64,000 nt of DNA, from positions 248,001-312,000 of the forward strand of contig CAKKRE010000016.1 in assembly GCA_919902505.1 (NCBI GenBank), written 5' to 3'. Shown here piece by piece: positions 53,252 through 64,000 of this stretch. A model generated the notes under the pieces. It did no database searches. It was not told the DNA's origin and worked only from the letters and a program-made list of their open reading frames with translations. The stretch is from Nitrospiraceae bacterium. Its GTDB lineage: Bacteria; Nitrospirota; Nitrospiria; Nitrospirales; Nitrospiraceae. Position 1 is the stretch's first letter, and each line of letters begins with the position of its first letter. A program made the position numbers and the translations under genes.

Positions 53252-55036
53252 TTAGAGGACCTTACCCTTCTTCTTGTTGGCACGGCGGGTCAGCATCCAG
53301 CCTTCCAAAAACACCACGCCAACAGCGATCACCGCCGGATAGATATACACTTCCTGCGGGATCGGAGGTTGCAAGATGGTGTAATAAAATGCCGACACAG
53401 CCATCTTGCGTCCAGCATCTCCGTTGTGTCCGTCCCAGGCAAAAAAGACCATCGGAATGTACTTACCGATGTCGAACCGAGTGTACTCATCATAATCATC
53501 CTTGTCGCCCTTCAGCGGACGGGAGATCATGACAGTCCATTGCCCATTCTTCCACTCGGACTTCAGCAGCTTAGTTTTTTCTTCGAAATCGTCACGCTCC
53601 TCGAAGTCCTGATCCCAACCCGTTCCCTTGAAGGAACGGAGCGAACCATCCGCCTCCCACTTCAAAATGTCGGCGTTGAACTTCGCATCTCCCCACAAAT
53701 ATCGTGGCTTGAATGGGGCAGGGATCTCCTGCCACTTGATCGGGAATTGGAACGCGATACCATCGTTATAGACGGCATAGTTGTTCTGAGCAGCCGCGAT
53801 TGACCCTTCTTCTCCGGTCTTAGGCGCTTGCTCCTTCACACCAAAGTTCTCAACATTGACTTGGATAGGCGCCCAAGGAAGTTTCCCCTCGGCGACACTC
53901 TTCGTCCGGTCATCCCACTGGATCAAGTACACCACGTTTTTCTCGTTGTACAACGACTTGACCCAGATATCATCGATACGATTGACGAAGTTACGAGGCT
54001 TGTGGGTGATCTGACCGCCCATCGCAACATAACGACGGCCCTGCTTCTTCCACATCTCATTCTCGGGGTCGTTCGAAATTTCACCCTCGACTGGAGCAGA
54101 AGGAACAACGAAGTTGATCTTCGGTTTGTCGGTCAAAGGATCAATGCCAAGAGGCTTACCCTCGGCATCGCGCTCACACAACGAGTTTACGAAGTTCGCA
54201 ATGCTCCAACGGTCTTCAACCGACGTGCTATCCGCGAATGACGGCATGGGCGTCCCGTTTACACCCGTGGAGAAGGTACGGAAAATATTCCGCACGTTAT
54301 AAGGATCTTGGCGACTGCCACGGAAATTCCAACACTTGTGCCAATCGGCCGGTTGAATTGAAAAGCCCCAGTCATCTTTCAAATTGAAGGCATTGCCGTC
54401 CCCACGCCCTTCCACGCCGTGGCACTCAATGCACTTCTTATCGACAATCAACTGAGCGCCCTTCTTAATGCTTTCTTCCGTTGCCTCAGCTGGCTTGAGA
54501 GTACCGAGCTGCAGAATGGTCTGCGTCTCAGATTGCTTGTCAGTAAATTTTCGATCCTTGACGAGTTGAGTCGTCACGAATGACAACACCTGGATCCGCT
54601 GCTCCTCAGTGAGGATGCCTTCCCACGGGGGCATGGCAGATCCGGGGAGACCATGCGTAACCGTATCGAGCAGGTCATTCTTCCCAGAATCAGGATTCTT
54701 CTCGTTGTAATTGAACAGGGGCAACTCTCCGCTCGCTGTGTGACGGATTTTGAATGTGCCCTGGTTGAAATTTCTCGGCCGTGGCCAGAGCCGATCGGCA
54801 CCTGGCCCATCACCGGCACCATCCACGCCGTGACACCAGACACACTTGGTAAAATAGACACGCTTCCCTGCTTCAATCATCTCGGCAGGAGGAGCTGGTG
54901 CCAATTCTCCCTTGGCAAAGCCTTCCGGAAGATCTTCGGCATGGCCCAATCCCGCCGCAGTTGCAGACAGGATAAGGGCCCCTAAGGCTGCTCCGATAAT
55001 CGGCGTCGCCTTTACGTTCATACGAAGTTTGCTCAT
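53252..55036 (-). CDS. Dihaem cytochrome c fused to an NxrC-like domain
   Basis: A 594-residue membrane-anchored protein. A signal peptide (residues 10-33) is followed by two cytochrome c domains with haem motifs CVWCH (C65) and CIECH (near residue 200), each with a following Met-containing PMP/MPPW-type segment. Residues about 330-560 form an ethylbenzene dehydrogenase gamma-like haem b domain with the closing FFAWDGHNGDAGRKMAVSAFYY. One C-terminal membrane helix and a Lys-rich end follow. The ATG at 55036 has GAGGTTAACA upstream. It is the last gene of the operon and probably carries electrons to the oxidase. Confidence 0.85.
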   Translation of the reverse strand: MSKLRMNVKATPIIGAALGALILSATAAGLGHAEDLPEGFAKGELAPAPPAEMIEAGKRVYFTKCVWCHGVDGAGDGPGADRLWPRPRNFNQGTFKIRHTASGELPLFNYNEKNPDSGKNDLLDTVTHGLPGSAMPPWEGILTEEQRIQVLSFVTTQLVKDRKFTDKQSETQTILQLGTLKPAEATEESIKKGAQLIVDKKCIECHGVEGRGDGNAFNLKDDWGFSIQPADWHKCWNFRGSRQDPYNVRNIFRTFSTGVNGTPMPSFADSTSVEDRWSIANFVNSLCERDAEGKPLGIDPLTDKPKINFVVPSAPVEGEISNDPENEMWKKQGRRYVAMGGQITHKPRNFVNRIDDIWVKSLYNEKNVVYLIQWDDRTKSVAEGKLPWAPIQVNVENFGVKEQAPKTGEEGSIAAAQNNYAVYNDGIAFQFPIKWQEIPAPFKPRYLWGDAKFNADILKWEADGSLRSFKGTGWDQDFEERDDFEEKTKLLKSEWKNGQWTVMISRPLKGDKDDYDEYTRFDIGKYIPMVFFAWDGHNGDAGRKMAVSAFYYTILQPPIPQEVYIYPAVIAVGVVFLEGWMLTRRANKKKGKVL

Positions 55037-55083
55037 TGTTAACCTCACCACCTGTTCTCCCAGGTTGTTTGTAAGATTCAGGA

Positions 55084-56121
55084 TTAGTCCCATGTCCGAG
55101 GATAGTATCCCGTGTGCCAATACTCGAACAGGATCACCTTCCAAATTTCGTCCGTCGTCAGGTGCTGTTCCCATGGTGGCATAACCGAAGCCCACGGGAA
55201 TCCTTCGTTCGGCAGACCAATTCCGCCCTTAGCCACGCGCCAGAAAATGAAGGTTTCCTGCAACTGTGCAATCGTTCCCGGGTCTGTGAAGTTAGCGGGA
55301 ATCGGATTGAACGCAAAGGCATGGAGACCGCGGCCGTTAAGATTGTCACCGTGACAGAAGTGACAATTCTGGAAGAATATTTCGCCACCTTCCCGAACGT
55401 ACTTCAGATACCCCTCAGCCTTGTCATCCCATGGGTTGGCATTGGGTGCCATCAATCGTCCCATCCCCTGTTCGACGATCAGCTTGTTGCTGTACGCCTG
55501 GTCAAACTTGCCCTCGAGATTAACCCGGTACGGGTTCTGTGACGTTTGTAGGGTGTAGGTCTTGCCGTGCACTTTCGTGCTAGCTGGCGGTGCCGGATGT
55601 ACCGTCCGGAGCTCAATCGGCTCATCCACATTCGGCTTCATGGTCATGAAGGAGAATCCGCCGATAAGAATCGGCAAGAGAATGAGATACATCGTCCTGA
55701 GTGCCTTATGGAATCCAGTGTTGGCGTCCAGAACATTGAGAATTGGCTGACGAAATTTCTTCCAATCCTCTTCATTGGCGGAGACCCACATGAATACGGC
55801 TACGAACGATACGGTTCCGTACATGGCACGAACGCTGAATGGAATCGGCGGATAGATACGGAACTTGAGATAGGCCTGAATAAAGGCCCAAAACAACACA
55901 CCCTGCCAAAACCGAGGGAAGGCAATTCCCATTGAGTTGGCCAGATAACTCAGGCCGGTGAACCCGGCCACGAAGATGGCCAGCTCACTCAATACCTGCA
56001 TGGGCATGTAGCCCTCAACGAGCCTGACGGTGTTCGAGGGCACTACTCCGAAGATCATTCCGATCAACATGAGCGACCCCAGGACGCCGATCAATGCCAC
56101 GACCGACATTAATGCTTTCAT
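55084..56121 (-). CDS. Membrane-anchored monohaem cytochrome c
   Basis: A 345-residue protein with about four to five membrane helices in residues 1-175 and a C-terminal periplasmic cytochrome c domain with the motif CHFCHGDN near residue 249 and a likely distal ligand in ASVMPPW near 312. The fusion of several membrane helices to a single cytochrome c domain is seen in cytochrome c subunits of respiratory complexes. It lies between two other cytochrome genes in the oxidase operon. Confidence 0.82.
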   Translation of the reverse strand: MKALMSVVALIGVLGSLMLIGMIFGVVPSNTVRLVEGYMPMQVLSELAIFVAGFTGLSYLANSMGIAFPRFWQGVLFWAFIQAYLKFRIYPPIPFSVRAMYGTVSFVAVFMWVSANEEDWKKFRQPILNVLDANTGFHKALRTMYLILLPILIGGFSFMTMKPNVDEPIELRTVHPAPPASTKVHGKTYTLQTSQNPYRVNLEGKFDQAYSNKLIVEQGMGRLMAPNANPWDDKAEGYLKYVREGGEIFFQNCHFCHGDNLNGRGLHAFAFNPIPANFTDPGTIAQLQETFIFWRVAKGGIGLPNEGFPWASVMPPWEQHLTTDEIWKVILFEYWHTGYYPRTWD

Positions 56122-59568: not shown

Positions 59569-59691
59569 TTACTTCCGCAGGAGATACCAAAAGTCCAAGC
59601 CCTGTGCGTCCATCAAAAAGTGGTCAACAGCCGCAAAAAACGAGACGCAGATCACTACCGATACGACGACATACACAATTGTTTGGCCCAT
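59569..59691 (-). CDS. 40-residue membrane microprotein upstream of the oxidase
   Basis: A small frame starting at an ATG with AGGGGGG six bases upstream. The 40-residue product has one membrane helix (about residues 4-22), then an acidic and aromatic end (DFWYLLRK). It lies 63 bases before the bd-like oxidase in the same direction. Small single-helix subunits (CydX, CcoQ) are common in terminal oxidases, and this is a candidate of that type. No sequence family is recognised. Confidence 0.6.
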   Translation of the reverse strand: MGQTIVYVVVSVVICVSFFAAVDHFLMDAQGLDFWYLLRK

Positions 59692-59741
59692 CTCAAACCC
59701 CCCTCAACAAGATGAACAATTTCCCAGGCCAGAATACCGGA

Positions 59742-59861
59742 TCAGCATGGGCACTGAATGCCGCCGAACCAGTAAAAAAACCAAAGGCCGACTGCCAGGG
59801 TGATGTAGAAAATCATTTTGCCGATCTTAACCTTGACGTCATCCTGAGCAGCTTCCATCAT
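59742..59861 (-). CDS. 39-residue membrane microprotein, first gene of the oxidase operon
   Basis: A small frame of 39 residues with a charged N-terminus (DDVKVKIGK), one aromatic membrane helix and a short end with two cysteines (CPC). Two adjacent ATG codons start it, with GGGGAG close upstream. It is 50 bases before the second microprotein gene and likely on the same transcript as the oxidase. It resembles small oxidase subunits in size and layout; function is inferred from position. Confidence 0.6.
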   Translation of the reverse strand: MMEAAQDDVKVKIGKMIFYITLAVGLWFFYWFGGIQCPC

Positions 59862-59879
59862 GATTCTCCCCAACGGTTT

Positions 59880-59891
59880 AAATACGTATTT
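59880..59891. promoter_or_regulatory. Palindrome between divergent small genes
   Basis: AAATACGTATTT is a perfect 12-base palindrome in the 99-base gap between the leftward oxidase operon and the rightward 34-residue gene. TTGACA lies just to its right (near 59896), a possible -35 box for the rightward gene. It could be an operator for both directions. Confidence 0.35.
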
Positions 59892-59960
59892 TGAATTGAC
59901 ACACCAACTACGCTGTGTTAATCAAAATCCCTCACGCACATGATTTCTAAAGGGATTTTT

Positions 59961-60065
59961 ATGGCTAAAAATTCAAAAGTGTTCGACATTATAGTTTTGG
60001 CTGGAATGGTTGTCAATATCATTTTGGCCGTGTTCCTGATCCTCTACTACTTTGATTTCCTATAA
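59961..60065 (+). CDS. 34-residue membrane microprotein
   Basis: A rightward frame starting at an ATG with AAGGGA about six bases upstream. The product is a basic N-terminus (AKNSK) and a single hydrophobic helix ending in YYFDFL. It is divergent from the oxidase operon, and its last 47 bases overlap the end of the first FGE-fold gene on the other strand. The ribosome site and helix support a real gene, but no family is known. Confidence 0.45.
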   Translation: MAKNSKVFDIIVLAGMVVNIILAVFLILYYFDFL

Positions 60066-60972
60066 TTTTCTCCGACCCCATTTCCTCGGATGACCGGCCA
60101 TTCTCCGCACTTGACTGAGCGCAACGAAAGCCGATTGTTTCATCCCGAAAATCCAGCATCATCTTGCTGCGCGCGGTAATGCGTAAATCCGATCCCGAAC
60201 TGGTATACGCCGCCCCGCGCAGCACCTTATAGGTCCCGTATTCAGGACTTTCGGGGTTGCGATCAGAGGCCGCAGCATAGGCCCCCTCAAGGTACCAATC
60301 GTTCACCCATTCCATCACATTGCCCGCACCATCCATAACCCCATAGGGACTGGCGTCACTCTTCACTCGCCCCACCGGCGCCGCCACTTCAAACCCATCG
60401 TCCACCCGAGCCCAATTCGCTGCGTTCGGCACTTCCACGTTCCCCCATGGCCACAGGCGACCATCAGGCCCGCGCATGGCCTTCTCCCATTCCGCTTCAG
60501 AGGGCAACCGCCTTCCGCGCCACTCGCAATAGACCTTGGCATCCTCCCAGGACACATAGACCGCGGGCTGATTCACCCCTCGCATACGCAGCGTATTTTT
60601 CGCATAGCGTGAGGACGGTCCTGACTTTCGATGTCCCGTTGCCTTCACAAACGCAGCATATTGCGCATTAGTCACCTCGTAGCGATCAATCAGGAACCGG
60701 TCGAGGTAAATCGTGCGCTCAGGCTGCTCATCAAACCCACCCCGATTGGTTCCAAGCACAAATGGCCCCGCAGGAATTGCAACGAGCTCTTCTTCAAGAG
60801 GCTCTTCAGCGGAGGCCGACCCAGGATTGGAGACGTCCTGATCCTGCTCGGCATGCTGGGGCTCAGCCTCAAATGGAGTGGATATCGTCCCGCGAAGAAT
60901 CGCAATGACGGGCAAGCTGGCGGCAAACAGCACCACCAGAAGAAAGATCACTTTGAATCGCGTTTCGAGCAT
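60019..60972 (-). CDS. FGE-fold (SUMF1-like) membrane-anchored protein, no catalytic cysteines
   Basis: A 317-residue protein. An N-terminal membrane helix (residues 8-28) is followed by an acidic linker and a formylglycine-generating-enzyme-like domain: IPAGPFVLGTNRGG, IDRYEVTNAQYAAF, YVSWEDAKVYCEWRGRRLPSEAEWEKA, GNVMEWVNDWY and a closing IGFRCA. The active-site cysteine pair of true FGE, which lies in the GGS-like loop, is missing (the loop reads GAAYTSSGSD). It is therefore not expected to make formylglycine; a binding or structural role in the periplasm is more likely. A paralogue lies directly upstream. Confidence 0.85.
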   Translation of the reverse strand: MLETRFKVIFLLVVLFAASLPVIAILRGTISTPFEAEPQHAEQDQDVSNPGSASAEEPLEEELVAIPAGPFVLGTNRGGFDEQPERTIYLDRFLIDRYEVTNAQYAAFVKATGHRKSGPSSRYAKNTLRMRGVNQPAVYVSWEDAKVYCEWRGRRLPSEAEWEKAMRGPDGRLWPWGNVEVPNAANWARVDDGFEVAAPVGRVKSDASPYGVMDGAGNVMEWVNDWYLEGAYAAASDRNPESPEYGTYKVLRGAAYTSSGSDLRITARSKMMLDFRDETIGFRCAQSSAENGRSSEEMGSEKIIGNQSSRGSGTRPK

Positions 60973-60983
60973 GACGTGACCGA

Positions 60984-61898
60984 CTACTTAACGACCACAT
61001 CTGCCTCGATGTCTTTCGCGCAGCGAAAGCCGACGGTAATGTCATGTCGCCACGGTTTTGCCTGGAACCGCTTCGATGAACGCACATTTCGCTTGGTCTC
61101 CCGCCAGGAGCCGCCGCGAATAACCCGCTGCTCACCCTGATCAGGGCCCTTCGGGTCGCGATAAGGAGAGCCTCGATAGGAATTCTCATCGTAGAAATCC
61201 GCGACCCACTCACCGACATTGCCCGTCATATCGTAGATTCCATAGGGACTACGACCTGACTCGAACGAGCCCGGGGGAGCAAGGTAACGAAATCCATCCT
61301 CATTTCCATCGATGTTCGCGTATCCCATCACAAATTCATCACCCCAGGCATAGCGGCGCTTCCCCTCTCCGCGAGCGGCCTTTTCCCACTCCGCCTCCGT
61401 CGGCAACCGCTTACCGGCCCATTTGCAATAGGCTTCCGCATCATCCCACGTCACAGCAATCATGGGGTACTCAGGCTTGAGCAGTTTGGCGGGATCCTCT
61501 TCAAACACTTCGATCTTTCGCTTGAGTCGCTTCGTCATCTTGGCAAAGCGATCATAAGCGTCCTGCGTGACCTCGTGCCGATCCAGAAAATAGGATTTCA
61601 GATACACCTGGTGCTCAGGCTTTTCATCTGGATCACTATCGTTATCCCGGCTGCCCATCACAAACGGCCCCTCAGAAACTTGCACCATGTCACGGCCGTC
61701 GTCGCCGACAAGTGCCTTATACATTGAGAAGTCCTGCGCCGCAGCCGCGACAACCGGCGTGGCCTCCGTGGTGATCGACTGCGCCAGTTGGCGCATCTGC
61801 TTGGCCTTATAGGATTCGTAGACCAAGGCGCCAATCATCAGGATAAACGACCCGAACACAAAGATAATCGACCCGATCAGCACACCCCTATTTTCCAT
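60984..61898 (-). CDS. FGE-fold membrane-anchored protein, paralogue, no catalytic cysteines
   Basis: A 304-residue relative of the next gene. One N-terminal membrane helix (residues 8-30) precedes an FGE-like domain with VSEGPFVMGSRDNDSDPDEKP, FLDRHEVTQDAYDRF, AVTWDDAEAYCKWAGKRLP, GNVGEWVADFY and IRGGSWRETKRN followed by VGFRCA. As in the paralogue, the cysteine pair of catalytic FGE is replaced. The two genes are 11 bases apart and probably arose by duplication. They lie between two copies of the bd-like oxidase, so a role in that complex is possible. Confidence 0.85.
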   Translation of the reverse strand: MENRGVLIGSIIFVFGSFILMIGALVYESYKAKQMRQLAQSITTEATPVVAAAAQDFSMYKALVGDDGRDMVQVSEGPFVMGSRDNDSDPDEKPEHQVYLKSYFLDRHEVTQDAYDRFAKMTKRLKRKIEVFEEDPAKLLKPEYPMIAVTWDDAEAYCKWAGKRLPTEAEWEKAARGEGKRRYAWGDEFVMGYANIDGNEDGFRYLAPPGSFESGRSPYGIYDMTGNVGEWVADFYDENSYRGSPYRDPKGPDQGEQRVIRGGSWRETKRNVRSSKRFQAKPWRHDITVGFRCAKDIEADVVVK

Positions 61899-63035: not shown

Positions 63036-64000
63036 CTATCCCTCATGAGACGGAGACGGCAGAAAGCCTGCCTCCTTCTCCGCACTCACATCTTCATGCA
63101 TCACCGGCTGCTGCCCGCGCTGACAGACCCAAAACAGGAAGAATACCGCCCCCCAAAACAGGGCCATGTTGATCGTGACCATTTTTGCCGCGAATCCAAG
63201 CGATGGCGTAAACGCCCAGGGGGACGTATCCGGCATCAACTCGTTGACGTGCCAGGCCAACCGGCCGGAAGAGCGGATATACCCCATCAACCCCATGACC
63301 CAGGTGAACGCGGCCGCTAATCCAAACAAGCCAACCATTCCGCGAACCGAAATCTGGCCCCACTGTACAGGACCGTGGATCGTGGCACCACGCAACATAC
63401 GCCGGTTCAGCAGCAAACCCAGCGTGACCACGAGCAATGTGGTGATGGCCTGCGGGCCGGACAGCCCTACGCGCAGACTGGCAGGAAGATAAAATCCATA
63501 GACCGATAGACCGATGATGTGCGCCGTTCCGAGGCCGAACAGAGCCCCCAGGATAACATTTCCTGCTTTGGCCCACGAGATCGTCATCGTCCGATTTGCG
63601 CGTCGATAAAAAATGTAACTCAAGGCGGTGATGCAGATCATCACGTTGACCGCGCCGTTCTTCGACGACATGACGCCGTAGTTTCCAATGACCGGATGCT
63701 GCGCCCCGCCCATGGCTTTGACTTCTGTCCCCGTCATCAAAATGGTGTGAGGCGTCAACCAGATAAACAGACAACCCGTCAGCGCAAGCAGGAGATACTG
63801 ATAGTAGGGCTGATAGCGCTCACCGCCGCGAATCCGTCCCATGCTCTGCCAGAGATAGTAATTCACGCCGAGAAAGAGCGCGCCGATCAGAAGCGCCTGC
63901 ACCACGAAGAGCCAGGTCAGCAACCCGCCCATCATCGTGACACCCATGCTTTGACTGTACGCATAGACGGAACGCATCAACCAATAACCGGCGAACGGCA
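63036..64000 (-). CDS. Second cytochrome bd-like oxidase subunit, 5' end outside the window
   Basis: The last 321 codons of a paralogue of the oxidase at 57.6-59.5 kb. The frame is open to base 64000 and reads PFAGYWLMRSVYAYSQ before the ATG at 63980, so that ATG is internal. Shared blocks with the first copy include GGLLTWLFVVQA, TPHTILMTGTEVKAMGG, HPVIGNYGVMSSKNGAVNV, MGLMGYIRSSGRLAWHVNELM and DTSPWAFTPSLGFAAKM. The C-terminus is shorter and lacks the Ala-rich tail. It heads the group with the DUF3047 and FGE-fold genes. Confidence 0.82.
   Translation of the reverse strand, partial: PFAGYWLMRSVYAYSQSMGVTMMGGLLTWLFVVQALLIGALFLGVNYYLWQSMGRIRGGERYQPYYQYLLLALTGCLFIWLTPHTILMTGTEVKAMGGAQHPVIGNYGVMSSKNGAVNVMICITALSYIFYRRANRTMTISWAKAGNVILGALFGLGTAHIIGLSVYGFYLPASLRVGLSGPQAITTLLVVTLGLLLNRRMLRGATIHGPVQWGQISVRGMVGLFGLAAAFTWVMGLMGYIRSSGRLAWHVNELMPDTSPWAFTPSLGFAAKMVTINMALFWGAVFFLFWVCQRGQQPVMHEDVSAEKEAGFLPSPSHEG

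Follow-up and report, generated by a model that had tools for sequence, protein, structure and literature searches.

Three small membrane proteins encoded beside a bd-like terminal oxidase of Nitrospiraceae: candidate oxidase subunits, one overlapping a conserved promoter-like sequence

The DNA analysed here, hereafter the window, is a stretch of 64,000 nucleotides from a Nitrospiraceae bacterium (GCA_919902505.1, contig CAKKRE010000016.1). It carries a gene for a bd-like oxidase subunit, genes for c-type cytochromes downstream of it and two very short frames, mp39 and mp40, upstream on the same minus strand (Table 1). An earlier note, made from the letters alone, had drawn attention to these two frames; they are present and encode MMEAAQDDVKVKIGKMIFYITLAVGLWFFYWFGGIQCPC (mp39) and MGQTIVYVVVSVVICVSFFAAVDHFLMDAQGLDFWYLLRK (mp40), each with a single hydrophobic helix by hydropathy, as the note had said. 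Of its two lengths, 39 and 40 codons, the second holds for mp40. mp39 opens with ATG-ATG and most relatives possess the second ATG alone, so that position 59858 is the likelier start and 38 residues the likelier length. The ribosome sites, previously called strong, are moderate in both cases (GGGGAG and GAGGGGGG); among mp39, mp40 and the oxidase, only the oxidase has a perfect one (AAGGAGGT). The statement that the frames fall below usual gene-calling limits is loose: at about 120 nt they are short yet callable, and in several other Nitrospiraceae genera mp40 reaches 67-96 residues with two helices. The window therefore carries the shorter of two mp40 architectures, devoid of the extra N-terminal helix.

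Table 1. Features of the window and of related loci; positions without a prefix are those of the window
Feature	Position	Strand	Remarks
Two-haem cytochrome c + EB_dh (NxrC-like) protein	53252..55195	-	downstream; start uncertain
Membrane cytochrome c, 345 aa	55084..56121	-	
Membrane cytochrome c, 437 aa	56174..57487	-	adjoins oxidase wherever sequence suffices
CydA-superfamily bd-like oxidase subunit, 643 aa	57574..59505	-	
mp40	59569..59691	-	40-aa membrane protein; its single helix is followed by a conserved D...M..QGL tail
mp39	59742..59861	-	membrane protein of 38 (39) aa with a single helix; ends in Cys-Pro-Cys
Promoter-like element facing div34 (TTGACA ... TGTTAAT)	59896..59924	+	inside the inferred 5' leader of the operon
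div34	59961..60065	+	34-aa membrane protein with a single helix; divergent; the most strongly conserved of the small proteins
Sigma70-type consensus promoter sequence TTGACA-N17-TATAAT	59988..60016	-	antisense inside div34; faces the mp39-mp40-oxidase operon
Paralogous bd-like subunit, 54%	63036..64000	-	runs past window end; no own trio
Damaged bd-like_4 type paralogues	G004:C1:1500586-1502184; G023:C11:48611-49512		
Stand-alone mp39-like	L090 4821-4910; L091 2333-2422; L092 7141-7230; L093 6735-6824; L094 3957-4046; L095 6550-6639		

The substitution pattern of mp39 and mp40 is that of coding sequences. Among 25 loci of the genus, mean pairwise identity at codon positions 1, 2 and 3 is 0.91, 0.95 and 0.76 for mp39 and 0.93, 0.98 and 0.72 for mp40, and the gaps following the two genes show 0.77 and 0.80. 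Changes are strongly synonymous, with a median pairwise dN/dS of 0.10 for mp39 and 0.04 for mp40 (pairs are not independent), and the frames are intact in every copy of the 48 family loci examined in detail. Judged by these patterns, which are unambiguous, mp39 and mp40 are protein-coding genes under purifying selection. The signs that the earlier note had named as refuting its view, broken frames or a lack of coding-type substitutions in relatives, did not appear. The search of related genomes that the earlier note had recommended found both to be widespread: in a set consisting mostly of drafts, mp39 is found in 132 and mp40 in 129 of 147 Nitrospiraceae genomes, each in 21 of 22 genera and nearly all with E <= 1e-9. 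Shuffled controls gave no profile match. The consensus cores are GP..F..........FF.WF for mp39 and F..LD..LM..QGL for mp40. The mp39 tail ends in Cys-Pro-Cys in Nitrospirales, is His-rich in several other groups and is short elsewhere.

The pair is real but incomplete, since a third small gene, div34, had escaped notice. Encoded on the plus strand (MAKNSKVFDIIVLAGMVVNIILAVFLILYYFDFL), it shows 82-100% identity through Nitrospiraceae, no amino-acid change at all within the genus (median dN/dS of 0) and the consensus core D..I..GM.VN...I...L.YY. In the window its 3' end overlaps an FGE-like gene antisense; at two loci (L069 and L070) it lies clear of this gene, and conservation of the protein persists there. 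div34 shares the operon strand, upstream of mp39, in 18 loci of other phyla and in two Nitrospirota loci from other classes. The three proteins, referred to below as the trio, have a charge bias favouring an inside N-terminus (100 of 120 copies of mp39, 87 of 130 of mp40 and 103 of 110 of div34), which points to an N-in/C-out topology. None of them matches a Pfam, NCBIfam or PDB family, whether searched as single sequences or as profiles. Two FGE-sulfatase-like proteins (60019-61898, minus strand) are encoded between the two bd-like genes of the window, a position conserved through the family.

The oxidase matches PF01654 with an E-value of 7e-20. Its AlphaFold2 model (mean pLDDT 83, pTM 0.82) found significant Foldseek matches among cytochrome bd subunits only and aligned with ten CydA chains at Z 30-34, thus identifying a CydA-type protein. 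Its resemblance to ActF of alternative complex III, at Z 21-22.5, is weaker than that to CydA and clearly exceeds that of unrelated rows; no Act genes were seen in the stretch examined. c-type cytochromes are encoded beside the oxidase in place of CydB, as in the OR-N type. By gene order, following PMC6606698, the oxidase would correspond to bd-like_2/OR-N2 (NIDE0901-like), the proposed complex IV. According to passages in PMC12342949 and PMC10839748, the OR-N group probably takes electrons from cytochrome c. The source genome, of 4.24 Mb, has four bd-like genes, as described for Nitrospira moscoviensis (PMC6606698). The paralogue at 63036 is a candidate for the second CydA-type partner (OR-N1) within the window. 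The most distant paralogue, of bd-like_4 type, is interrupted by an in-frame stop or split in two genomes of the genus.

The trio accompanies this oxidase far beyond the family. When 198 Nitrospirota genomes were searched with profiles, mp39 and div34 turned up in the sister family as well as in further orders of the class, and the order mp39, mp40, oxidase, both cytochromes c is the same in the sister-family and other-order loci mapped. With the oxidase alignment as query, a scan of 84,980 species genomes yielded at least 541 relatives, of which 80 loci were examined; these include Nitrospirota, Nitrospinota and many Proteobacteria (Gallionella, Mariprofundus, Nitrosomonadales, Rhodospirillaceae, Thiodiazotropha). 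With profiles built from Nitrospiraceae only and E <= 1, the zone of 1.5 kb upstream of the oxidase holds most of the matches in other-phylum loci: 40 of 44 for div34, 21 of 25 for mp39 and 48 of 49 for mp40. This zone makes up 17% of the sequence searched, and shuffled sequence gave no match. The other-phylum homologues are about 20-40% identical to the small proteins. Iterated profiles recovered the full trio in 100 of 125 loci having at least 1000 nt upstream (45/45 in the family, 10/15 in other Nitrospirota, 45/65 in other phyla); as they were trained on upstream matches, the unbiased figures are those from the family-only seeds. At L122, one of the loci counted as incomplete, diverged frames resembling mp39 and mp40 stand at the expected place. 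Four Nitrospinota loci (L139-L142) carry the oxidase and cytochromes c with no recognisable trio. In three genomes (G002, G009 and G011) trio and orthologous oxidase are both missing, a joint absence that may reflect assembly gaps.

The three bd-like paralogues in this genome have no trio member nearby, and neither has a second oxidase copy with 78% identity in genome G021 (L096, 1968-3911), which also stands without cytochromes c. The trio therefore follows the module made of the oxidase and two cytochromes c, and gene neighbourhood ties it to this module across phyla. A second CydA-type partner was found in five of the 12 proteobacterial genomes searched, which are drafts, and in none of the other seven. 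Hence the presence of the trio seems independent of the proposed OR-N1 partner. In the five genomes concerned, those of L153, L158, L161, L163 and L190, the second CydA-like gene encodes about 715-765 aa, and in three of them it shares the contig of the oxidase at a distance of 5-6 kb. In five genomes, mp39-like proteins also occur alone, as open frames of 64-93 aa ending ...WFFYWLNGIQCPC; no oxidase was found within the stretches fetched around them.

The intergenic region and div34 itself contain two promoter-like sequences facing each other. The one embedded in div34 is the sole exact match to TTGACA-N17-TATAAT in the window, and 100 shuffles gave none. All 12 positions agree in 45 of 46 Nitrospiraceae loci, from 19 genera, and in all seven sister-family loci, and 11 of the 12 agree in the remaining Nitrospiraceae locus; the sequence is not kept in other-phylum loci. 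Its conservation depends on synonymous third positions, in the ATT ATA and GTT GTC codons. In 45 of 46 family loci, the gap between div34 and mp39 contains a sequence directed at div34, TTGACA with a TGyTA-type element after it; TTGACA is present in 3% of shuffled gaps. From the predicted transcription starts, the two transcripts would overlap head-on over about 50 nt if both promoters are used. In Nitrospirales, a strong promoter antisense inside div34 would drive the operon, and div34 and the operon would be transcribed head-on from one short region. It is conceivable, if a little short of probable, that div34 serves two purposes, encoding an invariant oxidase subunit and carrying the full-consensus operon promoter on its other strand. 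Its own promoter would lie in the operon leader. Each promoter would fire across the other, so that div34 and the oxidase are supplied in a coupled manner, in a face-to-face layout kept across Nitrospirales. A weak Rfam nuoG match covers the mp39 leader (59852-59930, minus strand; 21 bits against a gathering score of 33); it lies below this score, is probably due to chance and was set aside.

The earlier note had suggested that the microproteins could be missing subunits of the oxidase, and the oxidase-specific link across phyla supports this suggestion. We consider it likely that all three proteins, mp39, mp40 and div34, serve the OR-N type (bd-like_2/TO_1) terminal oxidase as small single-helix subunits, and we infer that they belong physically to the complex. 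Each helix would insert N-in/C-out and pack against the CydA-like bundle, the trio helices standing in for CydB and for CydX-type helices, which are missing. The short tails on the periplasmic side (Cys-Pro-Cys or His-rich in mp39, D...M..QGL in mp40) could be situated close to the haems or to the face on which the two cytochromes c dock, and help to hold or load these cytochromes. The four Nitrospinota loci without a recognisable trio and the stand-alone mp39-like proteins speak against this reading. The Cys-Pro-Cys tail, being confined to Nitrospirales, cannot be a universal catalytic ligand.

The main competing view, which we regard as improbable though deserving attention, is that the three proteins are assembly or maturation factors, loading haem, copper or cytochrome c and then leaving. 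Co-localisation fits a subunit and an assembly factor alike, the same genomic pattern being expected, so that sequence cannot separate the two. The Cys-Pro-Cys or His-rich tails of mp39 could indeed hold metal and stand-alone mp39-like proteins exist; however, such tails are not universal, profile searches revealed no resemblance to known assembly factors, and three distinct co-conserved helices coming first in an operon are more typical of structural subunits. Small frames preceding an oxidase, with a 5' leader well conserved in the genus (0.91), could also be regulatory leader peptides, whose translation rather than product controls the operon. This we find very hard to accept, given that selection acts on the amino acids, whole helix included, that the mp39-mp40 spacing varies from 26 to 226 nt and that many genomes have div34 far upstream or on the opposite strand.

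The conservation of div34 might alternatively follow from two elements that it overlaps in the window, the promoter and the antisense 3' end of the adjacent FGE-like gene. Yet the protein is conserved over its whole length, including where the FGE-like overlap is missing, and its other-phylum homologues lack the promoter, leaving this explanation with a slim chance at best. As for chance open frames or a conserved RNA without protein product, the shortness of the frames and the sub-threshold Rfam match are what such a reading can draw on. It is already refuted by the substitution pattern and its probability is practically negligible: codon periodicity, dN/dS, intact frames in 48 copies and the divergent homologues of other phyla all go against it. 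We thus retain a role as oxidase subunits as the preferred reading.

A bd-like oxidase is the presumed respiratory enzyme of nitrite oxidisers and comammox Nitrospira; its subunit make-up (PMC6606698, PMC10839748) and the composition of the OR-N type as such (PMC10839748) are described as unconfirmed. If the trio members are subunits, purification, heterologous expression and structural work would need three small genes that annotation will probably overlook, and the same would hold for the relatives of this oxidase in iron- and sulfur-oxidising Proteobacteria. The trio would also provide markers by which the oxidase in its complete form can be recognised. Moreover, a promoter conserved inside a coding sequence would be a rare and testable case.

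Small single-helix subunits are familiar companions of terminal oxidases. CcoQ is a single-helix accessory subunit of the cbb3 oxidase. CcoM of cbb3, with 36 aa and a single helix (PMC10433244), and subunit IIa of the ba3 oxidase (PMC3128077) are likewise single-helix accessory subunits of cytochrome c oxidases, and all three resemble the trio in size and topology. They nevertheless serve heme-copper enzymes and have no sequence match to it. The same oxidase with cytochromes c appears, in passages of PMC6606698, PMC12342949 and PMC9040806, as the OR-N CydAA', bd-like_2 or TO_1 terminal oxidase of Nitrospirota. The main texts of the literature searched make no mention of small subunits for it, although Murali et al. 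2021, on the bd superfamily, may do so.

CydX of cytochrome bd, together with CydY and CydZ/DUF2474, offers the closest parallel in form: these proteins are small, single-helix, N-in/C-out and encoded with a CydA-type oxidase. For CydX this topology has been reported and forms with two-helix N-terminal extensions exist too (PMC4325964). Yet CydX-type genes lie downstream of cydB, whereas the trio lies upstream of the CydA-like gene, in an operon without cydB in the mapped stretch, and comprises three different families without Pfam match. The conserved Trp of CydX/CydZ is found where the helix begins, on its N-terminal side; mp39 has its conserved Trp at the far end, and mp40 and div34 have none there. 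Comparing 77 members of the trio families with the Pfam oxidase small-subunit models gave no match at E <= 0.5, the short models having limited sensitivity; the nearest match in this test was one weak FixP_N, at 0.17. The analogy drawn in the earlier note with CydX and CcoQ thus stands for size, helix and topology and fails for descent and gene position. As gene position, signature residue and profile match all differ from CydX/CydZ, we propose that the trio represents new families within a familiar kind of component, of which the threefold set and the predicted promoter arrangement would be the unusual traits.
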